Assembly: GCA_013299045.1 (NCBI GenBank)
Contig: JAAFJX010000001.1
Span: forward strand, 1-64,000
Direction of reading: 5' to 3'
DNA from: Cytophagales bacterium
GTDB lineage: Bacteria > Bacteroidota > Bacteroidia > Cytophagales > Bernardetiaceae
DNA: 64,000 nucleotides
Shown here one piece after another: positions 1,583 through 57,619 of the stretch. The notes beneath the pieces are model-generated. The model was not told the DNA's origin and did not search any database. It worked only from the letters and a program-made list of their open reading frames with translations. Position 1 is the stretch's first letter, and every line of letters starts with the position of its first letter. The translations under genes were made by a program, and so were the position numbers.

Positions 1583-4500
1583 ATGTACAAGCAATTTATC
1601 AGTTTATTAGCCCTGTGGCTGTTTTTGGCCAACTGCACACCAGTTACTAGCCAGCAAGTAGGCTCAGCAGACCCTAAAACCCTACAAGACAGCTTAAAGC
1701 GTGTTAAAGATAAGCAAAAGTACGATGCCTACTGCAAAAAACGCGATGCCTGGACAGACAGTTTGCTCAAAACCTTGACTTTAGAGCAAAAAATTGGCCA
1801 GCTGTTTATGATTGCGGCCTATTCTAACCAAGATGAAACAGCTTATAAGCAAGTAGATTATCTGATAAAAAATTATCATGTAGGCGGCTTGATATTTTTT
1901 CAGGGAGGCCCTGTACGGCAGGCAGTTTTAACCAATCGCTATCAGAAGTTAGCTAAAGTACCTCTCTTGATTGGTATGGATGCAGAATGGGGGCTTGGTA
2001 TGCGCCTAGATAGCACCATTTCTTATCCACGCCAAATTGTGCTAGGTGCTTGCGGTAACAACCAACTCATTTATAACATGGGCAGAGATATTGCTCTGCA
2101 ATGCAAAAGGCTAGGCGTACATATCAATTTTGCACCAGCAATTGATGTGAATAATAACCCTAATAATCCCGTCATTGGCACACGCGCTTTTGGGCAAAAT
2201 AAGGAAAACGTAGCCGAAAAAGGGAGTCTTTATGCCCGTGGAATGCAACATCAAAACGTACTAGCAGTGGCCAAACATTTTCCTGGCCATGGCGATACGG
2301 ACAAAGACTCACATTACACACTTCCTGTCATCAATCAGCCCATAGAGCGCTTTAAGAACTTAGAACTGTACCCCTTCAAACGCCTCTTTCAAGACTCTGT
2401 GCAGGGGGTAATGGTAGCGCATTTGCAAATCCCGGCTTATGACAGTGCCCGAAATACCCCAACGACGCTTTCAAAACGTGTCGTTACAGAGCTTCTTCAG
2501 AAAGAAATGGGATACGAGGGACTTATCTTTACTGACGCAATGAACATGAAGGGACTTTCAGATTTTTATGGTGCGGGTGAGGCAGATTTGAAGGCATTTA
2601 TGGCGGGGAATGATATTTTGCTCTATCCAGGGGCAGTCGCAAAAGGTGTTGAGGCCATTCAAAAAGCACTTAAAGACTCTGTTATCAGCTTGGCAGACTT
2701 GGATAAACGTGTCCGTAAAATACTCAATGCCAAATACTTTGCTGGTTTGAATAAATACAAGCCCATTCCTCTCAAGAACCTACACACAGACCTCAACAAG
2801 GCTGTTTACAAAGGACTTTGTGAAGAAATTTATGAAAACAGCGTAACTGTTGTGCGCGATACACCTAAACTGCTGCCCTTCAATAACTTTGATAGTTTGA
2901 ATTTTGCATCTGTTGTTATTGGAAAAACCAAAAATAATCCTTTTCAAAAGATGTTGAGCAATTATGCCCGCTTTGAGCATTTTCAGCTAGCGGATAAAAA
3001 CTTCGCTGAAAGCAGCGCCAGCACTATTTTGAGCAAAGCGAGCCAGAAAAAAGTGGTGGTGGTGGGGCTTTTTGGGGTGGACATTAATAAGCCCTCTATC
3101 AATTTTGGTATCTCTGAGAGCTGTAAGGCTTTTATCAAGGCACTAAGCCAAAAAACAAAGGTCGTGCTAGTCGTTTTTGGCAACCCATACAGCCTCAAAT
3201 ACTTTGATGAAGTGCCTACGCTTGTGGCTGCTTACAACGATGATAAATTGATGCAAAATGCTGTGCCACAAGTGCTTTTTGCAGCCATAGGCACAAATGC
3301 CAAACTGCCTGTTACGGCTTCAGATGCCGCTCCAGAGGGTGCTGGCCTCAGCTACAAAAGCCTAAACAAGATGCGTTTTTCGGAAGTACCCGAGCGCGTG
3401 GGCATGAATTCGCAAAGCCTCAATGAGCGAATCAGATGGCTTACTTCGGAAGCCATGGCTGTTCGTGCCACTCCGGGTATGCAGGTTTTGGTGGCCAAAG
3501 ATGGTATGGTAATTTATAACAAAGGCTTTGGGCATTTTACTTATGAAAAGCAGGATACCGTCAATGAAAGTACTATTTATGACCTTGCCTCACTAACAAA
3601 GGTCGTTGCGATAGTGCCTGTTATGATGAAATTGGTTGAGGATAATTTAGTGGACTTAGATGCGCCCATCGTCAAGTATTTTCCTGACTTGGGCGGAACG
3701 AACAAAGCAAGAATTACTGTAAGGCAGCTGCTTTCTCATCATTCTGGGCTTCCTTCTTTGATGCCTACTTGGCATAAAAATGGTTTTTCGGCAGCCCAGA
3801 GCGAAGATTCTGACCACACCGACCATGAAGATACTGACACAACAGTCCTTAAATATTACAACAAAGCAATGACCATGCAAGACGTGGATAATCTGTTTTG
3901 GAATTGGTTAAAAAGTGTGCCCCTGCGCACCAACAAGGCGGGTTCGCCTATTCCGCGCTACGGCGATGTGAACTTTTATGTTCTCAAGCGCTTGGCAGAA
4001 GTTGTAACCAAGAAGTCTTTAGAAACACTGACTAATGACTGGTTTTATAAACCATTAGGTTTAGGTTCAATGACTTACAACCCTCTTGATTACTACAGCA
4101 GTGAGCATATTGCACCAACAGAATTTGATATGTTTTTGAGGAAAAAACTGCTGCGCGGTGAGGTGCATGACTATTCTACGGCTCTGCTGGGGGGGGTGAA
4201 TGGCAACGCTGGTGTCTTTAGCAAAGCGGCAGATTTGGCTATTTTGATGCAAGTTTTTTTGAACAAAGGAGAGTATGGTGGCAAGCGCTTTTTTAAGCCT
4301 GAAACCATAGCCTTGTTCAACAAAAAGCATTATGCCTACAATCGTCGTGCCTTGGGCTGGGACAAGCCCGTGCCAGGTAGCCGCATACCCGTAACCAACT
4401 GGGCATCTTTACAAACGTTTGGGCACACAGGATTCACCGGTACGTGCGTCTGGACTGACCCCAAACACAACCTTACGTACGTTTTTTTGTGCAACCGGGT

Positions 4501-4588
4501 TTATCCAAGCTATCAGAACAGAATGCTTATAGCCAAAGGCTTTAGAACCCGTATCCATGATAGCATCTATAAAGCCATAGCGCAATAA
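1583..4588 (+). CDS. GH3 glycosidase / beta-lactamase fusion lipoprotein
   Basis: This is a 1001-aa two-enzyme protein. The N-terminus MYKQFISLLALWLFLANC ends in a lipobox, so it is predicted to be a lipoprotein. Residues ~45-400 form a glycoside hydrolase 3 N-terminal domain of the NagZ type: KHFPGHGDTDKDSH near 230-243 carries the family His/Asp dyad, and FTDAMNMKG near 316 the nucleophile Asp. A GH3 C-terminal-like region follows. Residues ~620-1000 are a class C-type serine hydrolase (PF00144): SLTK near 669 (SxxK), YGDVN near 793 (YxN) and HTGFTG near 947. The combination suggests periplasmic cell-wall muropeptide processing; the beta-lactamase-like part may be a peptidase or esterase rather than a resistance enzyme. 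The gene stops 7 bases before the convergent dnaJ stop. Confidence 0.92.
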   Translation: MYKQFISLLALWLFLANCTPVTSQQVGSADPKTLQDSLKRVKDKQKYDAYCKKRDAWTDSLLKTLTLEQKIGQLFMIAAYSNQDETAYKQVDYLIKNYHVGGLIFFQGGPVRQAVLTNRYQKLAKVPLLIGMDAEWGLGMRLDSTISYPRQIVLGACGNNQLIYNMGRDIALQCKRLGVHINFAPAIDVNNNPNNPVIGTRAFGQNKENVAEKGSLYARGMQHQNVLAVAKHFPGHGDTDKDSHYTLPVINQPIERFKNLELYPFKRLFQDSVQGVMVAHLQIPAYDSARNTPTTLSKRVVTELLQKEMGYEGLIFTDAMNMKGLSDFYGAGEADLKAFMAGNDILLYPGAVAKGVEAIQKALKDSVISLADLDKRVRKILNAKYFAGLNKYKPIPLKNLHTDLNKAVYKGLCEEIYENSVTVVRDTPKLLPFNNFDSLNFASVVIGKTKNNPFQKMLSNYARFEHFQLADKNFAESSASTILSKASQKKVVVVGLFGVDINKPSINFGISESCKAFIKALSQKTKVVLVVFGNPYSLKYFDEVPTLVAAYNDDKLMQNAVPQVLFAAIGTNAKLPVTASDAAPEGAGLSYKSLNKMRFSEVPERVGMNSQSLNERIRWLTSEAMAVRATPGMQVLVAKDGMVIYNKGFGHFTYEKQDTVNESTIYDLASLTKVVAIVPVMMKLVEDNLVDLDAPIVKYFPDLGGTNKARITVRQLLSHHSGLPSLMPTWHKNGFSAAQSEDSDHTDHEDTDTTVLKYYNKAMTMQDVDNLFWNWLKSVPLRTNKAGSPIPRYGDVNFYVLKRLAEVVTKKSLETLTNDWFYKPLGLGSMTYNPLDYYSSEHIAPTEFDMFLRKKLLRGEVHDYSTALLGGVNGNAGVFSKAADLAILMQVFLNKGEYGGKRFFKPETIALFNKKHYAYNRRALGWDKPVPGSRIPVTNWASLQTFGHTGFTGTCVWTDPKHNLTYVFLCNRVYPSYQNRMLIAKGFRTRIHDSIYKAIAQ

Positions 4589-4595
4589 ACGTAGG

Positions 4596-5750
4596 TTACT
4601 GGAAAAACTCTTTCATGCGGTCAAAAAAATTCTTGTCGCCTTTTTTAGGGGTATTGCTAAAGTTAGGTGAAGTACGGAGTTTTTCAATGATGGTGCGTTC
4701 TTCTTTGGTGAGTTCTTGCGGAGTCCAAACGTGTATGTGTATGAGCTGGTCTCCACGTCCATAAGCATTGAGTTCAGGAATGCCTTTTCCTTTGATTCTT
4801 AGAACTTTACCACTTTGCGTACCAGGTTCAACGGTTATTCTAGCAAGTCCATCTATAGTTGGCACTTCCACGCTTGTTCCCAAGACGAGGTCTGGAAAAC
4901 TCAAGTTAAGTGCATAAAGTATGTTTTTGCCGTCGCGCTTCAAGAGTTCATCTTCTACCTCTTCTATGACGATGAGCAAGTCTGCCGGACGGCCTCTGCG
5001 CCCTGCACGTGGTGGGTAGTTGCCGCGCCCCGACATAGAAAGCTGTATGCCTTCTGTAACGCCAGCCGGCACTTTTATATCAATAGTTTCTTCCTTGCTC
5101 GTTACACCATCGCCATTACAAGCCATACAGCGGTTAATAATGCGTTTGCCAGAGCCGCTACAGGTAGGGCATACACTCTGCGACACCATCTGGCCTAGCA
5201 TTGTGTTTGTTACACGACGCACCTGCCCTGCACCTTTACAAGTGGCGCAATTTTCAATAGCTTTGCCATCTTTTGCACCTGTCCCATCACAGGGGTCGCA
5301 TACGTGTAATCGTTTAATTTTGATTTTACGGTCTGCGCCTTTAGCAACTTCTTGTAGTGTCAGCTTCAGTTTAATGCGTAAATCAGTGCCGCGTGGTGCA
5401 TTAGATTGCCGCCTTCCGCCGCCAAACATATCGCCGAAGGGAGAATCATCACCAAAAACATCTCCGAAGCGCGAAAAAATATCATTAATGTCTTGGTAAT
5501 GCCCAGCCCCACCACTTTGGGCAGCCTCATGCCCGTAGCGGTCGTAACGTGCGCGCTTGTCGCTATCTGATAACATTTCATAGGCTTCTGCAGCCTCTTT
5601 AAAATCTTCTTCGGCTTGTTTATTATCCGGATTTTTATCGGGGTGCAGTTTGATAGCCAATTTTCGGTAGGCTTTCTTTATATCGTCAGCGGTTGCGTTT
5701 TTACCTACACCGAGTATTTCGTAATAATCGCGTTTTTTGGACTGTGCCAT
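4596..5750 (-). CDS. dnaJ: Chaperone DnaJ (Hsp40)
   Basis: DnaJ stimulates the DnaK ATPase and delivers unfolded substrates. The 384-aa protein has the classic type I layout: a J domain ([23 protein letters not shown] in LHPDKNPDN) at 8-73, a Gly/Phe-rich linker ([17 protein letters not shown]), four CxxCxGxG zinc-finger repeats ([32 protein letters not shown]) around 150-220, and the C-terminal substrate-binding domain. It follows grpE on the same strand 69 bases downstream, the usual heat-shock pairing; dnaK is not in the window. Confidence 0.97.
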
Positions 5751-5819
5751 AGTTTTATTCTGAATTCCGTTATTTTTTTCAAGTATGGGAAGATATTGTA
5801 ATCTCTAAGACTAACAAAT

Positions 5820-6392
5820 TTAAACCCCTACCACTACCTTTGCGAAGCGAACCACCTTATCGCCAATCATATAACCACATTCCACTTCCTCAACCACCTT
5901 GCCTTTTAGGGAGTCATCGGGTGCCGGAAACTGTGTAATCGCTTCGTGCAAATCCATATCAAACGTTTGGTCTTTGGCAGAAGGCATCTTTTTTAATCCT
6001 TTGGATTCTAATAACTTAAAAAGTTTATTGTGAATAAGACCCATGCCTTCTTTGAGTTGCTCAATGTTTTGTTCGGAAGCTGTAGTCATAGATTTTTGAG
6101 CGCGGTCAAAATCATCTAAAATCGGCAATATAGCCAGCAGCAAATCCTTTGAGGCGGTTTGTATGAGTTCTAATCTTTCTTTTGCATTTCTGCGTTTGTA
6201 GTTTTCAAAGTCCGAAAAAAGGCGTAAATACTTGTCCTTCATGGCCGCTAACTCATTGGCCTCAGTAGAGGTTTTCGGCACTTCAGACAGGCTATCTTCC
6301 TCTGAAACAGTTTCTTTGTCAGCATCTTGTGCATCTGCGGACGCAGACTCCGCCGCGTTATCGTCCAACGGCTTTTTATCGTTATCTTCCAT
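5820..6392 (-). CDS. grpE: Nucleotide exchange factor GrpE
   Basis: GrpE releases ADP from DnaK. The protein has an acidic disordered N-terminus, a coiled coil with YLRLFSDFENYKRRNAKERLEL, a four-helix segment with LPILDDFDRAQ, and the C-terminal beta domain ending HEAITQFPAPDDSLKGKVVEEVECGYMIGDKVVRFAKVVV, all family hallmarks. The ATG at 6392 gives 190 aa and starts at the usual acidic stretch. An in-frame ATG at 6467 would add 25 basic, hydrophobic residues and cannot be excluded. It is the first gene of a grpE-dnaJ pair; an inverted repeat upstream (6504-6528) may regulate it. Confidence 0.95.
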   Translation of the reverse strand: MEDNDKKPLDDNAAESASADAQDADKETVSEEDSLSEVPKTSTEANELAAMKDKYLRLFSDFENYKRRNAKERLELIQTASKDLLLAILPILDDFDRAQKSMTTASEQNIEQLKEGMGLIHNKLFKLLESKGLKKMPSAKDQTFDMDLHEAITQFPAPDDSLKGKVVEEVECGYMIGDKVVRFAKVVVGV

Positions 6393-6503
6393 TTTTTTGG
6401 AACTGTTGAATAAGGATTTGAAAAACTTTTTCAAAATATTGGATTTTGGAAAAAGTAAAAACAACATTAACTTTCACAATTCCGCTGCCAATTTGATTTT
6501 TAC

Positions 6504-6528
6504 TGACTAAATGACGCAATTTTAGTCA
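6504..6528 (-). promoter_or_regulatory. Possible operator upstream of grpE-dnaJ
   Basis: A perfect 8-bp inverted repeat, TGACTAAA (6504-6511) and TTTAGTCA (6521-6528), separated by 9 bases. The geometry resembles the CIRCE heat-shock operator (9-bp arms, 9-bp spacer), but the base sequence is unrelated to TTAGCACTC. On the minus strand it overlaps TAAAATTG (6517-6524), one mismatch from the TAnnTTTG -7 box, so a bound repressor could block transcription of grpE-dnaJ. Confidence 0.4.
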
Positions 6529-6789
6529 TTATGGCATATTTTACACGGGTTCTATAGGATTTATGGCACGGTCTTGGCCTAAAAAACTGACAGGGTTTTG
6601 TATCTTAAAAATAGAGCGATTGAAATGATATTCAGTGTTTTTCATGCTCTTTTGTAAATTTTCTAAAATAAAACCTAAATGGCATTCCTTTTGTAAAAAA
6701 AATCATGTTTTTTTGCCTTTCAAAAGCATCAACACATTCCCTTATTCACACAGCCTATCAATGATAAATTTGGGCAGCAACCAAGCAAT

Positions 6790-12045: not shown

Positions 12046-12197
12046 TGCAACGCCTTTTTATATCCTCCGTCTTCGTTTCATTACTGACTGATGCTGTCGT
12101 AGTGGTTTTCTTGCATGGCTTTGGCTTTGGCTATGGGTTCGGTCATGAACGCGATAGAGCAACGAGCCTTCGTATTCTACGCTATTGTGGCGCTGAT

Positions 12198-13205
12198 TTA
12201 CTTTTTTTCGTTCAGTTTACGCAAAAGCTCCTCTATGAGTTTGTCTTTTTCAGTAAGCGCTTGCTTTTGTTCATTGAGCGCTTGGTCTTTTTCAGTAAGC
12301 GCTTGCTTTTGTTCACTAAGCGCTTGCTTTTGTTCATTGAGCGCTTGCTCTTTTTCACTAAGTGCTTGGTCTTTTTTACTAAGTTCTTTGGTCTTATCTG
12401 CCAATTCTTTGAGCAACTTCCTTTCTTTTTGCCCAAACAAAGCATTTACAGTACGCCAGGCCTCTTGCTCGTCTTCTATCCGCTTGCGCTCTTCAGGTTC
12501 TGTGCCCACATAATGCAAAATATTCGTTATTTCCCTCATCTCTTCCAAATCAGGGCTGTGGATATACTTTTTTGTAATTTCCTTATCGTCCGTAAAATTG
12601 CTCTGCTCAAAAATACTCAACAGTTTATCCAAACGGGTTTGGTAGCGGTTCGTAACACGCTTAGCCTGAACCACAAAGCAATCATGCGTCAGTTTCTCTA
12701 TGAACTCGCTCTTTTGGGTGATGGTGGTCTTGTTGATAAGGTCGGTGTATTGGCGCTCTACTCTGACGCAGGCTGTTTCTATTTCTGGCAGTTTGAAGCC
12801 CAAAATATAAATCGTAGTGATGGGTAAAACGGCTGATTCGTCATTGATTTTGTCTTCTTTTTTGTACTGCTCGGCCAAATAATTCCTAAAACGCATCAAA
12901 TCAATTTGATTCTGTGCCTTTTGTATTTCTATGAGTACTTTTTTATACTGCCCAGTTTCGGTTCTGATGGTGGCGATAAAATCTAAGCGGTAAACCCAGA
13001 TGGAAAAACGCTCACGCATACGTTCTTCAACTGCTTTTGTGCCTTCTGGTGTATCTAGTTCGCCCTTGTAGGTGTATTCTTGCGGTTTTATTTCTAGTGT
13101 TTCTATGTGCTGGTCTAGAAGTGTGCCAATAAAAAACTTAGCCACGCGCTCATTTTCCATCAAGCGTTTAAACACTACATCGTAAATCGGGTTCGCAATA
13201 ATCAT
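12198..13205 (-). CDS. Rpn-type PDDEXK_2 nuclease, copy A (8 heptads)
   Basis: A 335-aa member of the Rpn/PDDEXK_2 family (recombination-promoting nuclease, putative transposase; PF12784/TIGR01784). It opens MIIANPIYDVVFKRLMENE, the family's 'D..FK.lf' entry. The catalytic core shows RLDFIATI (Asp) and, after a short hairpin, VLIEIQKAQ (E-x-Q variant of the PD-(D/E)xK site). The C-terminus is a coiled coil of exact 7-residue units of the type KDQALNE/QKQALSE; this copy has 8, then EKK. It is nearly identical to two genes 41 and 43 kb away (53031 and 55693). The shared unit spans about 12195-13316, so homology ends just past the stop and 110 bases before the start. Unlike the other copies, no Rhs or toxin sequence follows it. 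Confidence 0.9.
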   Translation of the reverse strand: MIIANPIYDVVFKRLMENERVAKFFIGTLLDQHIETLEIKPQEYTYKGELDTPEGTKAVEERMRERFSIWVYRLDFIATIRTETGQYKKVLIEIQKAQNQIDLMRFRNYLAEQYKKEDKINDESAVLPITTIYILGFKLPEIETACVRVERQYTDLINKTTITQKSEFIEKLTHDCFVVQAKRVTNRYQTRLDKLLSIFEQSNFTDDKEITKKYIHSPDLEEMREITNILHYVGTEPEERKRIEDEQEAWRTVNALFGQKERKLLKELADKTKELSKKDQALSEKEQALNEQKQALSEQKQALTEKDQALNEQKQALTEKDKLIEELLRKLNEKK

Positions 13206-13227
13206 AGCTCTTGTTTCTTTTCAAAGA

Positions 13228-13235
13228 CAAAGATA
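13228..13235 (-). promoter_or_regulatory. -7 box of Rpn copy A
   Basis: TATCTTTG on the minus strand, matching TAnnTTTG, 23 bases before the ATG. The same box sits at the same distance in the other two copies. No TTG at the expected -33 spacing was seen. Confidence 0.4.
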
Positions 13236-13389
13236 CAACTTTTTGTCGCTTGGGGTGGTCAGGAAATGAAGAAATATTTTGGAGGGTTACTAGTTTTTGG
13301 TCTTGCAGGATTTCTATGCAGAAAACGAGGCTATCCTCACCCTTGTTCGTGTCCTATACAAACAGTCCCCTGCTATCGTTTGTGTAACA

Positions 13390-13677
13390 GAAACAAACAT
13401 ACCATAGAACTTATCACCAATCAAGGGTTTTTGACAGCAAACACCATTAGTGAACTGTATAAAAACAGATGGAGATTAATCACTGAAACTGGTCAAAATG
13501 TGGTCATCATACAAACATGAAAAGCCCTCATCATCAACTTGTCCTGAAAGCCTTAAAAGCGATGGCCAAGCACAAGTGGTATTCATTAGACTGAACATCA
13601 TTGTAAAGATAAACTTGCAAACAATCAATCCTAGTGCAATATTTTAACAAACTAAAAAACGTTTAAGACGGCATTGA
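13390..13677 (+). pseudogene. IS4-type transposase remnant and IS end
   Basis: Translation in the frame of 13392-13518 gives NRNKHTIELITN, then TISELYKNRWRLI, matching the conserved IS4-family segment that normally continues to '..ElfFK.iKQ'. The expected acidic and FFK residues are missing, and the frame continues into a degenerate 'SENAV.iQIW'-like stretch, stops, and a frame-shifted LKALKAMAKHKWY. The segment ends with TTTAAGACGGCATTGA (13662-13677), the same end found at 28350 and 32880. This is a decayed 3' part of an IS. The rest of the gap 13206-13856 shows nothing else apart from the Rpn unit's leader. Confidence 0.7.
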
Positions 13678-40649: not shown

Positions 40650-43046
40650 TTATTTGTAGAGTTCTGGATAATCCTTAGGGAAAGCCTCGCTCAGCATTTC
40701 ATAAACCGCATCATAAATGTCTTCTGTACTTGGCTTAGAAAAATAATCGCCATCGGAAGCATAAGGGGGGCGATGGTCTTTGCCAGACACACAAATAGGC
40801 TTGGCATCTAACCAGCGGTAGGCATCTTGCTCGTCCAGCACTTTTTGCATCATATAAGCCGAAGCACCGCCGCTCACGTCTTCGTCGGCAAAGATGACTC
40901 GGTTAGTTTTCTGGATAGATTTGACTATGCTGTGGTTTAAATCAAAAGGCAAAAGGGTCTGTACATCAATAACTTCTACACTAATACCTACTTCTTCTAG
41001 CTGCTCGGCCGCATCAAGCACAATACGACACATAGAACCGTAGGTTACGACCGTAACGTCTTTGCCCTTGCGTAAAATTTCGGGTTGGCCAAGCGGGACT
41101 GTGAACTCACCTATATTTTGGGGCATGGTCTCTTTCAAGCGGTAGCCGTTCAAGCATTCAATGATAATGGCTGTGTCATCAGATTTGAGCATCGTGTTAT
41201 AGAAGCCCGCAGCCTGCGTCATGTTGCGCGGTACAAGTACATACACACCACGCATGGTACTCAAAATTGCGCCCATAGGTGAGCCTGAATGCCATATCCC
41301 TTCTAAACGATGGCCGCGGCTGCGGATAATCAAAGGTGCTTTTTGGCCCCCCTTGGTACGATACTGCAATGTGGCGAGGTCATCTGAAAGGATTTGCAAG
41401 GCATAAAGCAAATAGTCGAGATACTGAATTTCAGCGATAGGCCGTAAGCCGCGCATAGCAGCTCCTATACCTTGTCCTATGATGCTTGCCTCGCGAATAC
41501 CTGTATCCATGATGCGAATTTCACCATATTTGGCCTGCAAGCCCGCAAAAGCCTGATTGACATCACCTAAGAAGCCTACGTCTTCACCAAAGGCAACAGC
41601 CAAAGGCTCACGATTAAAAATATTATCAAAACAAGCCTGCAAAATTTCGCGCCCGTCCACCATAACAGCGTCTGAGGCATAGCTGGCTTTGTTTTCAGAA
41701 ACTTTAAGGGCAGATTCAGCCGACTCGCTATAAAGGTGCGAGCTATAACGCACCTTATTTTCTGCCAAGATGCGCTCTAGCCAATCATTAAGTGCCCTCT
41801 TAGCGCCATTATCTTCAAAACGCATCAGGCGAAGTGCCTTTTTAGCCGCTTTGATGGCATCTTGACGAATCGGATTAAGGGTAGCACTGAGTTCTTGTGC
41901 CAAAGCAGTTAGTTTGGCGCTTTCGGCTGAGCCAGAAGCTGCTACTGAGTTCAGCAAACGAATAGCCTCTTGGTGGTCTGCCTGCATAGAGGCCACAAAG
42001 GCTTTCCATGCGGCATTTTTGGCTTCGCGTGCATCATCAGTGGCTTGCTGTTCTATTGAGTTTAACTCTTCTTCGGTAGCATACCTATTTTTGAGCAACC
42101 AAAGACGCATTTGACGCAAACAGTCATATCCAGCCTCAAAGGTCATGCGTTCTTTTGACTTATAGCGCTCATGTGAGCCAGATGTAGAGTGCCCCTGCGG
42201 CTGTGTAACCTCTGTAACGTGTACTAAAACGGGCACGTGCTCCTTACGACAAACGGCTTCGGCGCGCTCATAGGTTTTGCATAATGCCTCATAATCCCAT
42301 CCTTTTACTCTAAAAATTTCAAAGCCTGGTTCGGTTTCGGTTCTTTGCAAACCTTTCAGAATTTCTGAAATATTACTTTTAGTGGTTTGGTACTTTTGCG
42401 GTACAGAAATGCCGTAACCATCGTCCCAGACGGACATCAGCATAGGTACTTGCAATACGCCTGCTGCATTTAAGGATTCAAAGAAAAGCCCCTCAGAGGT
42501 AGAAGCGTCACCTATTGTGCCAAAAGCAATTTCATTGCCTTTGTTAGAAAATTGTGTGTAAGTGTGCAATGCTTCGTTCTGGCGAAACAACTTAGAGGCA
42601 AAAGCCAAACCCAAAAGCCGCAACATTTGAGAGGCCGTGGGCGAAGTATCGGAGCTTGAATTTTTTTGAGCGGTAAGGTTCTTCCAACGCCCTTGCTCGT
42701 CTAGTGTGCGCGAGCCAAAATGCCCGTTCATCATACGACCTGCTGAGGCAGGCTCCGCCTCAACGTCTGTATGAGCATAAAGCTGCGCAAAATACTGTTG
42801 TAGCGTAAGTTGATTAATAGCCATCATCAGGGTCTGGTCGCGGTAATAGCCAGACCTAAAGTCGCCGTTTCGGAACACCTTAGCCAAAGCAATTTGTGCA
42901 AGTTCTTTGCCGTCGCCAAAAATACCAAACTTGGCTTTGCCCATGAACACTTCTTTGCGGCCCATTAGGCTGGCATGGCGGCTTTTGCAAAGTAAGCGAA
43001 AATCTGCTAAGGCTTCTTCTTTGCTGATAGTAGGCGCGTCTGTCAT
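40650..43046 (-). CDS. 2-oxoacid dehydrogenase E1, fused alpha-beta
   Basis: A single-chain thiamine-diphosphate decarboxylase of about 798 aa, joining the E1 alpha and beta parts that are separate in most bacteria. The alpha half has RSGYYRDQTLM, GTIGDASTSEGLFFESLNAAGVLQVPMLM (the GDG-type TPP motif, here GDAS, with the later NDD-like VWDDGYGIS). A linker of roughly 100 residues follows, and the beta half has REPLAVAFGEDVGFLGDVNQAFAGL, DTGIREASIIGQGIGAAMRGLRPIAEIQYLDYL and VTVVTYGSMC. The organisation is common in Bacteroidota and is usually assigned to branched-chain 2-oxoisovalerate or pyruvate oxidation; substrate cannot be fixed here. The ATG at 43046 is preferred over a GTG at 43079. 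Confidence 0.93.
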   Translation of the reverse strand: MTDAPTISKEEALADFRLLCKSRHASLMGRKEVFMGKAKFGIFGDGKELAQIALAKVFRNGDFRSGYYRDQTLMMAINQLTLQQYFAQLYAHTDVEAEPASAGRMMNGHFGSRTLDEQGRWKNLTAQKNSSSDTSPTASQMLRLLGLAFASKLFRQNEALHTYTQFSNKGNEIAFGTIGDASTSEGLFFESLNAAGVLQVPMLMSVWDDGYGISVPQKYQTTKSNISEILKGLQRTETEPGFEIFRVKGWDYEALCKTYERAEAVCRKEHVPVLVHVTEVTQPQGHSTSGSHERYKSKERMTFEAGYDCLRQMRLWLLKNRYATEEELNSIEQQATDDAREAKNAAWKAFVASMQADHQEAIRLLNSVAASGSAESAKLTALAQELSATLNPIRQDAIKAAKKALRLMRFEDNGAKRALNDWLERILAENKVRYSSHLYSESAESALKVSENKASYASDAVMVDGREILQACFDNIFNREPLAVAFGEDVGFLGDVNQAFAGLQAKYGEIRIMDTGIREASIIGQGIGAAMRGLRPIAEIQYLDYLLYALQILSDDLATLQYRTKGGQKAPLIIRSRGHRLEGIWHSGSPMGAILSTMRGVYVLVPRNMTQAAGFYNTMLKSDDTAIIIECLNGYRLKETMPQNIGEFTVPLGQPEILRKGKDVTVVTYGSMCRIVLDAAEQLEEVGISVEVIDVQTLLPFDLNHSIVKSIQKTNRVIFADEDVSGGASAYMMQKVLDEQDAYRWLDAKPICVSGKDHRPPYASDGDYFSKPSTEDIYDAVYEMLSEAFPKDYPELYK

Positions 43047-52501: not shown

Positions 52502-52645
52502 TAGTCGTCCCTTAAAAAGGCGGCACAAGAACAAGTACATCAATTGATTGATATGATTCATCTGCTTTAGAAACCCTCTCATGATTTTTGGTGGCTTTTT
52601 CTCTCTACTTTTTGCCTTGATGCAGCACTGAAGCGCGAGCTGATA
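52502..52645 (-). repeat. Dispersed TAGTC element, right-end copy
   Basis: Begins TAGTCGTCCCTTAAAA (52502-52517) and, read on the minus strand, matches 17490-17626 closely: both carry TCATATCAATCAATTGATG, AGAGAAAAAGCCACC and GCTGCATCAAGGCAAAAAG. Only the right-hand 140 bp of the element is present. Confidence 0.75.
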
Positions 52646-52672
52646 CTTTTTAGGGGGGGCAGTCTCAGTTTT

Positions 52673-53068
52673 ATGGCCTTCGTAACGGCGCAGAAAGAGC
52701 AGACCCAAAAGCCGACCATACTCCAGAAAGAAGAAAGCAAAAAGTTAGGGCTGATACTGAGCGTGCCGCCCCTGCAAACGAGCCAGCGCGTGGGCGAAGA
52801 GCGCCGCAGACACCTCAATATGTTTAGTTTTTTGCCGTTTTTGGTGGGTAAGAGGAAAAAAGCCGAACAAAACACCCAAGTACCCGAACAGAACCAAAAC
52901 GACAGCCTTAGCGCCTACCTAGAAATCCTGCAAGACCAAAAACTAGTAACCCTCCAAAATATTTCTTCATTTCCTGACCACCCCAAGCGACAAAAAGTTG
53001 TATCTTTGTCTTTGAAAAGAAACAAGAGCTATGATTATTGCGAACCCGATTTACGATGTAGTGTTTAA
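52673..53068 (+). other. Possible protein remnant ahead of Rpn copy B
   Basis: A 131-codon frame starting MAFVTAQKEQTQKPTILQKEE with FSFLPFLVGKRKK near residue 50. It runs into the leader and start of Rpn copy B, whose ATG lies in another frame. A similar but shorter peptide, GFLPFLVFRTKK followed by LSAYLEI, precedes Rpn copy C, so the two modules share an ancestral coding segment here. Nothing shows it is a functional gene. Confidence 0.35.
53001..53008 (+). promoter_or_regulatory. -7 box of Rpn copy B
   Basis: TATCTTTG, 23 bases before the ATG; identical placement in the other two copies. Confidence 0.4.
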
Positions 53069-53996
53069 ACGCTTGATGGAAAATGAGCGCGTGGCTAAGT
53101 TTTTTATTGGCACACTTCTAGACCAGCACATAGAAACACTAGAAATAAAACCGCAAGAATACACCTACAAGGGCGAACTAGATACACCAGAAGGCACAAA
53201 AGCAGTTGAAGAACGTATGCGTGAGCGTTTTTCCATCTGGGTTTACCGCTTAGATTTTATCGCCACCATCAGAACCGAAACTGGGCAGTATAAAAAAGTA
53301 CTCATAGAAATACAAAAGGCACAGAATCAAATTGATTTGATGCGTTTTAGGAATTATTTGGCCGAGCAGTACAAAAAAGAAGACAAAATCAATGACGAAT
53401 CAGCCGTTTTACCCATCACTACGATTTATATTTTGGGCTTCAAACTGCCAGAAATAGAAACAGCCTGCGTCAGAGTAGAGCGCCAATACACCGACCTTAT
53501 CAACAAGACCACCATCACCCAAAAGAGCGAGTTCATAGAGAAACTGACGCATGATTGCTTTGTGGTTCAGGCTAAGCGTGTTACGAACCGCTACCAAACC
53601 CGTTTGGATAAACTGTTGAGTATTTTTGAGCAGAGCAATTTTACGGACGATAAGGAAATTACAAAAAAGTATATCCACAGCCCTGATTTGGAAGAGATGA
53701 GGGAAATAACGAATATTTTGCATTATGTGGGCACAGAACCTGAAGAGCGCAAGCGGATAGAAGACGAGCAAGAGGCCTGGCGTACTGTAAATGCTTTGTT
53801 TGGGCAAAAAGAAAGGAAGTTGCTCAAAGAATTGGCAGATAAGACCAAAGAACTTACTAAAAAAGACCAAGCGCTCAATGAACAAAAGCAAGCGCTTAGT
53901 GAAAAAGACCAAGCGCTCAATGAACAAAAGCAAGCGCTTACTGAAAAAGACAAACTCATAGAGGAGCTTTTGCGTAAACTGAACGAAAAAAAGTAA
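53031..53996 (+). CDS. Rpn-type PDDEXK_2 nuclease, copy B (6 heptads)
   Basis: A 321-aa protein. Its first ~277 residues are identical to copy A, including the RLDFIATI and VLIEIQKAQ catalytic segments. The coiled-coil tail is the shortest of the three: six 7-residue units then EKK, 14 residues fewer than copy A and 21 fewer than copy C. The gene opens the first of two tandem modules; 150 bases after its stop a broken Rhs-core fragment begins. The conserved unit starts at TAGAAATCC (52920). Rpn proteins are known to stimulate RecA-independent recombination in E. coli; whether this one does is inference. Confidence 0.9.
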   Translation: MIIANPIYDVVFKRLMENERVAKFFIGTLLDQHIETLEIKPQEYTYKGELDTPEGTKAVEERMRERFSIWVYRLDFIATIRTETGQYKKVLIEIQKAQNQIDLMRFRNYLAEQYKKEDKINDESAVLPITTIYILGFKLPEIETACVRVERQYTDLINKTTITQKSEFIEKLTHDCFVVQAKRVTNRYQTRLDKLLSIFEQSNFTDDKEITKKYIHSPDLEEMREITNILHYVGTEPEERKRIEDEQEAWRTVNALFGQKERKLLKELADKTKELTKKDQALNEQKQALSEKDQALNEQKQALTEKDKLIEELLRKLNEKK

Positions 53997-54145
53997 AATA
54001 TTTCTTCTGTATCCTTAACCAACTACGAAAAACTTTTTTAAACTTTACGCTGCAAACGTTCTTTGATAAAAATAGTCTGGATTAAGATTCGTAGGATTTA
54101 AAGAATCATGCTAATCCTTTAATCCTGAAAATCAGGGTTCAGACA
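53997..54145 (+). repeat. Spacer repeated in both modules (first copy)
   Basis: About 150 bp almost identical to 56722-56870. It includes TTTCTTCTGTATCCTTAACC, and imperfect inverted blocks AGGATTTAAAGAATC / AATCCTTTAATCC ahead of CTGAAAATCAGGGTTCAGAC, a sequence type common between genes of Bacteroidota. Confidence 0.75.
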
Positions 54146-54481
54146 ATTAGCATAGACCCGCTGGCGGAGAAGTTTGCGCAGCAGTCGCCTTATTGTGGGT
54201 TTGATAATAATCCGGCAGGAAAAAGCGACCCGACGGGTATGTTTGGTGAAGGGTTTCAATCAACGAATGTTGGTGATGCTTCAGAGAGTGAATTTGAAAA
54301 GCGTATGCGCTTAAAGTCTTCAGGTAACCCTGAGCTTCCAGCTAGAATTACTCTTTTTAAGTCTAATACACACCATCTGGCAGCAGCTCGAGCGGCGACG
54401 GTGGTGGTGATGACGGCCCTAAGAAGAAAAAGAAGAAAAAAGCCAGCATTCGGCATCGCTTTTTTCTCTGCTTTCGGGTAA
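54146..54481 (+). pseudogene. Rhs repeat-associated core fragment (module 1)
   Basis: The frame from 54146 reads ISIDPLAEKFAQQSPYCG, FDNNPAGKSDPTGMFGEG, matching the conserved 'DPL...f...SPY.yc.NNPi...DPdGm' end of Rhs/YD-repeat cores that sits just before the toxin in polymorphic toxins. There is no start codon and no upstream YD repeats. After about 80 residues it enters a Lys/Arg-rich stretch and stops at 54479-54481; the pre-toxin continues in a different frame from about 54423. It is a truncated, frameshifted relic rather than a whole Rhs gene. Confidence 0.82.
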
Positions 54482-55500: not shown

Positions 55501-55662
55501 GCATACAGTTAGGTTTTCTACCTTTTTTGGTATTCCGAACTAAAAAAAATACAAAGGATAGAAGTACCCTCTCTGCCTACCTAGAAATCCACCAAGACCA
55601 AAAACTAGTAACCCTCCAAAATATTTCTTCATTTCCTGACCACCCCAAGCGACAAAAAGTTG

Positions 55663-55692: not shown

Positions 55693-56721
55693 ATGATTAT
55701 TGCGAATCCGCTATACGATGTGGTGTTTAAGCGGCTCATGGAAAATGAGCGCGTGGCTAAGTTTTTTATTGGCACACTTCTAGACCAGCACATAGAAACA
55801 CTAGAAATAAAACCGCAAGAATACACCTACAAGGGCGAACTAGATACACCAGAAGGCACAAAAGCAGTTGAAGAACGTATGCGTGAGCGTTTTTCCATCT
55901 GGGTTTACCGCTTAGATTTTATCGCCACCATCAGAACCGAAACTGGGCAGTATAAAAAAGTACTCATAGAAATACAAAAGGCACAGAATCAAATTGATTT
56001 GATGCGTTTTAGGAATTATTTGGCCGAGCAGTACAAAAAAGAAGACAAAATCAATGACGAATCAGCCGTTTTACCCATCACTACGATTTATATTTTGGGC
56101 TTCAAACTGCCAGAAATAGAAACAGCCTGCGTCAGAGTAGAGCGCCAATACACCGACCTTATCAACAAGACCACCATCACCCAAAAGAGCGAGTTCATAG
56201 AGAAACTGACGCATGATTGCTTTGTGGTTCAGGCTAAGCGTGTTACGAACCGCTACCAAACCCGTTTGGATAAACTGTTGAGTATTTTTGAGCAGAGCAA
56301 TTTTACGGACGATAAGGAAATTACAAAAAAGTATATCCACAGCCCTGATTTGGAAGAGATGAGGGAAATAACGAATATTTTGCATTATGTGGGCACAGAA
56401 CCTGAAGAGCGCAAGCGGATAGAAGACGAGCAAGAGGCCTGGCGTACTGTAAATGCTTTGTTTGGGCAAAAAGAAAGGAAGTTGCTCAAAGAATTGGCAG
56501 ATAAGACCAAAGAACTTAGTAAAAAAGACCAAGCACTTAGTGAAAAAGACCAAGCGCTCAATGAACAAAAGCAAGCGCTTAGTGAAAAAGAGCAAGTGCT
56601 CAATGAACAAAAGCAAGCACTTAGTGAAAAAGAGCAAGTGCTCAATGAACAAAAGCAAGCGCTTACTGAAAAAGACAAACTCATAGAGGAGCTTTTGCGT
56701 AAACTGAACGAAAAAAAGTAA
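55693..56721 (+). CDS. Rpn-type PDDEXK_2 nuclease, copy C (9 heptads)
   Basis: A 342-aa protein that differs from copies A and B in residue 7 (Leu for Ile) and in the coiled-coil tail, which has nine 7-residue units. The first ~50 bases of the gene carry clustered, mostly silent changes (for example GTGGTG for GTAGTG and CGGCTC for CGCTTG), after which the sequence is identical to copies A and B for about 800 bases. That abrupt border suggests gene conversion. It opens the second module, ahead of a broken Rhs core and a colicin E5-like toxin. Confidence 0.9.
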   Translation: MIIANPLYDVVFKRLMENERVAKFFIGTLLDQHIETLEIKPQEYTYKGELDTPEGTKAVEERMRERFSIWVYRLDFIATIRTETGQYKKVLIEIQKAQNQIDLMRFRNYLAEQYKKEDKINDESAVLPITTIYILGFKLPEIETACVRVERQYTDLINKTTITQKSEFIEKLTHDCFVVQAKRVTNRYQTRLDKLLSIFEQSNFTDDKEITKKYIHSPDLEEMREITNILHYVGTEPEERKRIEDEQEAWRTVNALFGQKERKLLKELADKTKELSKKDQALSEKDQALNEQKQALSEKEQVLNEQKQALSEKEQVLNEQKQALTEKDKLIEELLRKLNEKK

Positions 56722-56870
56722 AAGATTTCTTCTGTATCCTTAACCAACTACGAAAAACTTTTTATAACTTTACGCTGCAAACGTTCTTTGATAAAAATAG
56801 TCTGGATTAAGATTCGTAGGATTTAAAGAATCATGCTAATCCTTTAATCCTGAAAATCAGGGTTCAGACA
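56722..56870 (+). repeat. Spacer repeated in both modules (second copy)
   Basis: Near-identical to 53997-54145, running from the Rpn stop to the Rhs-core fragment. Confidence 0.75.
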
Positions 56871-57166: not shown

Positions 57167-57619
57167 ATGGGCGACTATCACAATGATAGCGAATGGCTTT
57201 ATGTGAGCGACTGGCTCAATAGCTTAGGGCTTGATGGCAGAATACCAGGCGAGCTTTCCTATGACGGCGCTATGACCCAAGATGCTGGTCTATGGCAGCT
57301 ACTTGGCTTCAATCTAAAAGATTTAAAAAGTCTTTGGAAAGCGCTGTTCGGAAGAAATACCACTAAGGGGGGAAGTAGTTGGGTTTATGGTACTTTTAAG
57401 TCAGAAACTAAATGGGCAAATCAATTTGCTAAACGAGGATGGACACCCGAGCAAGTTACAGAGGCAATAATGAAGGGAGAAAAATTTGATGCGGTCAATA
57501 TGGTTAATAAAGGCAATGCTGCAATAAGATATGTTCACCCGACCACAGGAAAATCTGTCGTAATTGATAATGTAACAAAAGAACTTCTACAAGTTGGGGG
57601 TGAAGGATTTCAATGGTAA
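57167..57619 (+). CDS. Colicin E5-like tRNase toxin C-terminus (module 2)
   Basis: 150 residues from the first ATG; the same frame extends upstream to 56954. Residues ~35-63 (AMTQDAGLWQLLGFNLKDLK, SLWKALFG) are shared with module 1. The tail is a recognisable colicin E5-type ribonuclease domain: KRGWTPEQVTEAI, then NKGNAAIRYVHPTTGKS, VVIDNVTKELLQVGGEGF. Colicin E5 cleaves tRNAs with queuosine-type anticodons (Tyr, His, Asn, Asp). It lacks any secretion part, so it is an orphan tip: expressed only if a start is supplied or if it recombines onto an intact Rhs gene. It overlaps the next gene by 7 bases. Confidence 0.8.
   Translation: MGDYHNDSEWLYVSDWLNSLGLDGRIPGELSYDGAMTQDAGLWQLLGFNLKDLKSLWKALFGRNTTKGGSSWVYGTFKSETKWANQFAKRGWTPEQVTEAIMKGEKFDAVNMVNKGNAAIRYVHPTTGKSVVIDNVTKELLQVGGEGFQW

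Follow-up and report, generated by a model that had tools for sequence, protein, structure and literature searches.

An rpn-like gene is repeated three times (copies A, B and C) in the window, the whole 64,000-nucleotide stretch of DNA analyzed here, and this raises the question of how a single gene may be copied within a genome without the structure of a classical transposon. The first-pass annotation had regarded copy A as the minimal unit of a discrete mobile or copied element. Our analysis covered one genome, a 4.06-Mb draft in 79 contigs. A nucleotide search of the whole draft with positions 12195-13316 returned 30 matches, including three near-complete copies (A itself; C, 97%; B, 96%), diverged copies on contigs C73 (83%) and C68 (78%), and a distant copy on C74 (66%), and many contig ends fell within further copies. 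The matches to C and B ran over almost the full length and ended thereafter, so the extent of the segment common to the three copies was upheld. Because most of the remaining copies are broken by contig ends, their left and right flanks could not be paired.

Pfam and NCBIfam scans gave no match of the window protein to PF04754 or TIGR01784, and searches of the genome with these two models missed all copies of the gene. Three other rpn genes of the genome (C51:43556, C50:104091, and C23:1753) scored above the TIGR01784 cut-off and are not close to the amplified copies. Among relatives of the protein, L053 and L056 (62-63% identical) scored 22.5 and 26.9 bits with PF04754, above its cut-off of 21 (the other eight of the 10 scanned did not pass), 3 of the 20 aligned members matched this model at E<=0.1, and none of 10 relatives, mostly more distant, matched it at E<=0.01. 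Residues R73, D75, E93, Q95, and K96 are invariant in 20 sequences and form a PD-(D/E)XK core of the D...E-x-Q/K type, which we take to be catalytic (alignment A1 leaves out L054, L061, L069, L072, and L074; L069 has stop codons). The gene was named rpn-like on the basis of the missed family models, the relatives passing PF04754, and this invariant core. An hhalign comparison with the three canonical rpn genes of the genome brought D75, E93, and Q95 into register in a weak match (E 0.04, probability 1.3). The AlphaFold model, used to judge the nuclease-domain fold, was too poor for this (mean pLDDT 66.7) and had no Foldseek match at E<=0.001; a search of solved structures returned weak matches alone, mostly to coiled coils and designed proteins, and defence models gave one coiled-coil match among 3 proteins. 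The copies differ in length by heptads (B, 321; A, 335; C, 342; C73, 356 aa), and the C68 copy (291 aa) is additionally short of 16 codons near its N-terminus, a shorter form also present in other species. Close relatives of the protein are sparse: of the 390 genomes searched from the order, 14 (the window's own included) have one at E <= 1e-60, and plasmid and phage sequences contained no match at E<=1e-5.

Copy A and its edges

The features of copy A, all on the minus strand, are as follows.

12198..13205, minus strand: rpn-like ORF of copy A (335 aa); about seven heptad (21-nt) repeats lie near its 3' end
13268..13280, minus strand: 13-mer AAAATATTTCTTC, marking the left edge of copy A's rpn-like segment
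13268..13316, minus strand: rhs1 remnant left of copy A, codons ..EILQDQKLVTLQNISS, 49 bp, 88% to rhs1 site 1 of C68
12096..12197 (about), minus strand: rhs2 fragment directly 3' of the copy A stop; extent read by eye, with 12166-12206 matched by search

The alignment of 13316-13268 to an rhs gene (88%) makes those 49 bp target sequence, and the left edge given earlier, TAGAAATCC, falls outside the gene unit in the alignment of this stretch to the rhs sequence of C68. The same remnant matches rhs1 site 2 of C68 at 87% over 45 bp. Read from these alignments, the left edge of copy A is the stump of an interrupted rhs1 gene, terminated by other sequence. On the opposite side, the rhs2 flank is also found in contig C5 and in an uninterrupted rhs2 of C66, and identical 31-bp rhs2 stretches occur in C52, C49 (two), C28, and C8. 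With an rhs1 context on its left and an rhs2 context on its right, copy A is thus a chimera of two contexts. The proposal that A defines a minimal unit at whose ends homology halts was therefore not borne out, its outer 49 bp being rhs1 and its 3' flank an rhs2 fragment. IS debris, claimed to lie beside A, was likewise unconfirmed: the 84-aa ORF at 13266-13520 had no Pfam match at E<=0.05, and the repeats of the flank elsewhere are short.

Copies B and C within rhs1

Copies B and C lie on the plus strand, together with the rhs1 sequences around them.

52632..52968, plus strand: left half of the rhs1 gene that copy B interrupts; its 337 bp match site 1 of C68 at 97%
52956..52968, plus strand: 13-mer, left direct repeat of copy B
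53031..53996, plus strand: rpn-like ORF of copy B (321 aa); segment inserted: 52969-53994
53995..54007, plus strand: 13-mer forming the right-hand direct repeat at copy B; the TAA stop codon is completed by its first two bases
53995..54152, plus strand: rhs1 right half resuming after copy B, 86% to the continuation of site 1, holding a REP-like repeat
55575..55630, plus strand: remnant of rhs1 to the left of copy C; includes the 13-mer (55618-55630)
55693..56721, plus strand: rpn-like ORF of copy C (342 aa), whose start region includes a gene-conversion tract
56720..56732, plus strand: 13-mer (12/13) at the copy C stop codon, where rhs1 resumes
57167..57619, plus strand: orphan toxin tip of rhs type, located 3' of copy C and carrying a Colicin_E5 RNase domain

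In copy B, the rpn-like gene sits within rhs1 and is bounded by exact 13-bp direct repeats of AAAATATTTCTTC. When placed on the uninterrupted rhs1 site 1 of C68, the flanks of B cover 144-480 (97%) and 468-641 (86%), and their overlap at 468-480 is exactly the 13-mer, so that the inserted material amounts to 52969-53994 plus one copy of the 13-mer. On site 2 of C68, which carries 12/13 of the motif with one base different, the overlap is 11 bp. The exact 13-mer lies at 42920-42932 in site 1 and its 12/13 form at about 40720 in site 2, whose gene reads ..AYLEIYQDQKLAPRQNISPVSL.. in a frame open through the RHS core domain (TIGR03696). Site 1 is intact at the insertion point and broken farther downstream by the REP-like repeat also held in the right half after B. 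A short uninterrupted rhs1 fragment with one mismatch in the 13-mer is found in C50. By TIGR03696, three of the six proteins scanned were above the cut-off, one was below it, and two had no match. The empty site that the first-pass annotation had proposed to look for is thus present for B, together with a duplication that it had missed, and not for A; accordingly, its statement that no target duplication is seen stands for A and apparently fails for B (exact 13 bp) and C (12/13). Its other structural statement, the absence of terminal inverted repeats, was confirmed at the ends of both the B insert and A. In the outer 60 bp of the B insert, the best inverted match was 9 bp long, lay 36-40 bp inside the ends, and was reached by 35 of 2000 shuffles, and the same search found no pairing at the very ends. 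The reading as a dedicated transposon was rejected on the absent inverted repeats and the variable left ends described below.

The congeneric comparison comprised one genome (84% complete), in which neither DNA nor protein searches matched the rpn-like gene. A homologous rhs fragment of this genome reads INIS at the site (TAAATATTTCTAA) and shares 10/13 bases of the 13-mer. As this genome is free of the gene and retains uninterrupted rhs codons, the uninterrupted state is most likely ancestral.

Two minor observations concern the sequence downstream of the insertions. The REP-like repeat ..GATTAAGATTCGTAGGATTTAAAGAATC..CCTGAAAATCAGGGTTCAGACA lies at about 54050-54145 and 56775-56870 of the window and also in C68 and C40; it breaks rhs1 after LRCK in several copies, C68 site 1 included, and 5 of 9 search matches span it. 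The Colicin_E5 tip is followed by an ORF, identified by eye, of some 75 aa, which may be its immunity gene.

The 13-mer and the boundaries of the copies

The exact 13-mer occurs 17 times in the genome: 10 precede the gene or its promoter, 3 follow the gene, 3 lie in gene-free rhs1, and 1 is elsewhere (C70). In other words, 16/17 occurrences lie in or at rpn-like or rhs1 sequence, against an expectation of 0.4-0.7 from the composition of the window and 3 occurrences of a reversed-motif control. The C73 copy, which adjoins a thioesterase gene outside rhs, carries AGAATATTTCTTG at the equivalent place (11/13 of the 13-mer), and the sequence to the left of this motif is homologous to a non-rhs1 flank, Lb, with a score reached by 0/2000 shuffles. 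Lb is the left flank of C11, C38, C57, and C66, with an rhs core match in two of the four (C11 and C66), and sequence comparison found no likeness between Lb and the rhs1 flank. The 13-mer apparently belongs, as judged from these alignments, to both the upstream region of the gene and the rhs target. Because sequences like the 13-mer are native to the promoter's upstream side as well as to rhs, the simplest reason for the insertion to start there would be short shared homology, and the presence of such a sequence upstream of a non-rhs copy fits insertion by short homology better than the action of a dedicated transposase. Given the likeness of 10/13 in the congeneric rhs and 11/13 in C73, a shorter stretch of homology may have been present when the insertion took place. 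The gene-free rhs1 fragments C68:39143, C63:21798, and C48:197478 begin at most a few bases away from the 13-mer (C48 has 12/13 of it), so this place is a recurrent breakpoint in rhs1.

Of the 14 assembled 5' regions, 12 have the 13-mer (>=11/13) upstream, and C60 and C74 have none there; this count leaves out a promoter-like stretch without the gene at C3:1486-1548, which is also preceded by Lb, and in C11, C57, and C66 the promoter alone is visible before the contig end. The left context of these 14 regions is rhs1 in six (A, B, C, C40, C16, and C3), Lb in four (the contigs named above), Lb-like in C73, and other sequence in C68, C60, and C74. Even the rhs1 remnants differ in length, with 337 bp in B, 129 in C3, 74 in C40, 68 in C16, 56 in C, and 49 in A. 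At the 3' side, 13 of the 15 assembled ends pass into rhs no more than 3 nt from the stop codon: four (B, C, C68, and the C76 end) reach rhs1 at the 13-mer, seven (C66, C60, C58, C77, C41, C12, and the C76 start) reach rhs2 at GGCTCG, and two (A and C5) reach rhs2 at CAGCGCC; the ends of C73 and C74 do not enter rhs. The copied unit is thus gene-sized and free of inverted repeats, as first described, and not discrete with defined ends: the left ends vary between copies, an outcome that the first-pass annotation itself had set against a defined unit, while the right ends are near constant at the stop codon, in line with what it had noted.

Several features point to exchange among the copies. 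All four pairings of left flank (rhs1 or Lb) with promoter type were found. Copy C carries 10 consecutive C68-type sites (positions 56 to 120) within an otherwise B-type gene. The C68 copy and B share 80.6% identity over the ORF before the repeats, in blocks ranging from 50% to 95%; in the 60-bp blocks that run from the 3' repeats past the stop codon and on into rhs1, identity rises to 92-98%. Since its 3' end is B-like, the C68 junction was probably exchanged and not formed anew. Copy A equals B over 816 ORF bases, yet the 3' side of A runs into rhs2 and that of B into rhs1. The conversion tract and the mosaic 3' ends show that later spread proceeded by homologous recombination, so the rhs1 junction may stem from one event, and the repeat-rich 3' end of the gene is a likely crossover zone. 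Two independent insertions at the same rhs1 site had been hinted at by the tree, which sets the C68 copy apart (ultrafast bootstrap 95) and reflects the gene body only, and by the length difference of 16 codons (48 nt); this candidate was dropped because the 3' end and junction of C68 are B-like.

Explanations and relation to known rpn and rhs systems

The account that we favour, with modest confidence, is that the rpn-like gene entered rhs1 at the short shared 13-mer and was then multiplied and reshuffled by ordinary recombination. In this process, a YhgA-like, PD-(D/E)XK-type gene would have been inserted into an rhs polymorphic-toxin core at the codons Q-N-I-S-S. As the junctions suggest, a broken rhs would have used the short shared sequence for strand invasion or template switching, after which promoter and gene would have been copied as far as the stop codon and joined back where the same 13-mer begins. 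The copies would then have multiplied within the rhs arrays through ordinary homologous recombination and gene conversion, acting among rpn-like copies as well as among rhs fragments, with copy A as a reshuffled product whose left side derives from the rhs1 insertion and whose right side derives from the rhs2 context. One insertion may explain every rhs1 junction, so that few independent events stand behind the preference for the 13-mer. This is where rearrangement of the rhs arrays competes as a complete explanation, with a single illegitimate joining at which the 13-mer match was incidental, followed by homologous recombination among long repeats. The varying left ends, the mosaic genes and conversion tract, the two distinct junction points in rhs2, and the three gene-free rhs1 fragments that begin at the site are all consistent with it. 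We nevertheless consider it rather unlikely, because an exact 13-bp overlap of the two target halves is unexpected from random joining and 16/17 of the genomic 13-mers lie in or at rpn-like or rhs1 sequence.

The perfect 13-bp duplication in B with its uninterrupted site, and a right end that coincides with the stop codon in each of the three rhs contexts seen, could also be read as a target-site duplication made by an enzyme, in which the Rpn-like nuclease or a helper made a staggered cut and its own gene was integrated up to the stop codon. A site preference has been proposed for rpnC (in the available part of PMC5350276), and the strings of 12-14 bp shared by 4/44 copies outside the genome (p<=0.01) would agree with such an activity. 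We regard this as improbable, since inverted repeats are absent at the ends, the 13-mer-like sequence upstream of a non-rhs copy need not be a target duplication, the four strings elsewhere lie 7-24 nt past the stop with longer repeats at L066 and L161, and transposition by Rpn proteins is argued against in the portion of PMC10327210 available. A bolder version, a homing-like selfish gene whose nuclease cuts or marks the QNISS codons, copies the promoter and gene there, duplicates 13 bp, and drives rearrangement of the toxin arrays, is quite doubtful. That the gene is instead a functional member of the rhs module, kept beside toxin and immunity genes (e.g., for defence or for promoting module exchange) in the way that H-repeats accompany the rhs elements of E. 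coli, appears very unlikely: 13/15 of the assembled 3' ends adjoin an rhs fragment and the frames are open with a varying number of heptads, but the insertion breaks rhs1, and two rhs core peptides found no match at E<=1e-3 in the 74 loci around relatives elsewhere (flanks of 1.5-4 kb at most, some overlapping), so the rhs link looks local to this genome among those seen.

Direct repeats among relatives were examined in 49 copies, five of them from this genome (L109, L114, L118, L121, and L123), by comparing the upstream 300 bp with the 40 bp after the stop; copies below 230 aa, with flanks below 200 bp, or with identical upstream 60 bp were dropped. The longest shared string averaged 7.8 in the 49 copies versus 7.1 in cross-genome controls, and 10.8 versus 8.8 when 300 bp downstream was used instead. 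Strings of at least 12 bp were shared in 6/49 copies, the 99th percentile of the cross-genome control being 11. Two of these six are B and C68, right at the stop, and the other four (L051, L066, L110, and L161) have theirs past it, at the distances given above; these four make up the copies outside the genome, with significance obtained by shuffling, and the strings of L066 and L161 accompany the longer repeats. This is a weak and tentative excess. Direct repeats at the stop as a general feature of the family were rejected, as they are not a rule over the 49 copies.

Our protein resembles the Rpn/YhgA-like family (COG5464, PF04754, and TIGR01784) in its conserved N-terminal D...E-x-Q core and variable-length, repeat-rich C-terminus, in its scattered single-gene copies without inverted repeats, and in the tandem arrays of some genomes; it differs in C-terminal repeats of 7 residues here versus 4 there and in being missed by the Pfam and NCBIfam models. 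H-repeats are a transposase-like gene repeated beside the rhs elements of E. coli, and their protein family is not known to be related to the rpn-like protein; they likewise place a repeated gene beside rhs modules, whereas here a 13-bp junction is visible. The hallmark of orphan rhs arrays, an RHS core domain with a variable tip (TIGR03696 and Colicin_E5), is present in the genome of the window. According to the available part of PMC3967940, an orphan rhs module joins the main gene through homologous recombination, and the Salmonella arrays described there share with ours the rhs core fragments, new toxin tips, and small downstream genes, whereas here a nuclease-like gene lies between the modules and within the core gene. 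For rpnC, repeated arrival at one place, between panC and panD, has been proposed (PMC5350276, in part); that site is intergenic and no duplication is described in the available text, whereas here the gene lies within a coding gene and uninterrupted sites exist in the same genome. Published rpn genes, in the available sections of PMC10327210, have no inverted repeats, no target-site duplications, variable ends, and arrays formed by tandem duplication. Our data agree on the inverted repeats, the variable ends, and the tandem arrays (four genes in L058) and depart from that description in the direct repeats that bound copies B and C, so that B is a useful exception to the reported lack of target duplication. 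Our search of the open-library literature found no paper treating rpn and rhs together. To the question of how rpn genes spread, B contributes a concrete, testable junction with filled and uninterrupted sites and a 13-bp duplication, and the rpn-like gene is here tied to the shuffling of rhs toxin arrays.

Tandem structures were also noted around relatives elsewhere. In L066 (2886-5697), an rpn-like gene lies between direct repeats of about 87 bp in a region with an 810-bp duplication. The L058 array, in another Cytophagales genome (about 3083-6714), consists of four head-to-tail rpn-like genes in units about 94% alike, with only a few bases between each stop and the next ATG. In genome G029, locus L122 (1377-1630; also L115) contains a 127-bp exact tandem duplication of the promoter and first codons of an rpn-like gene.
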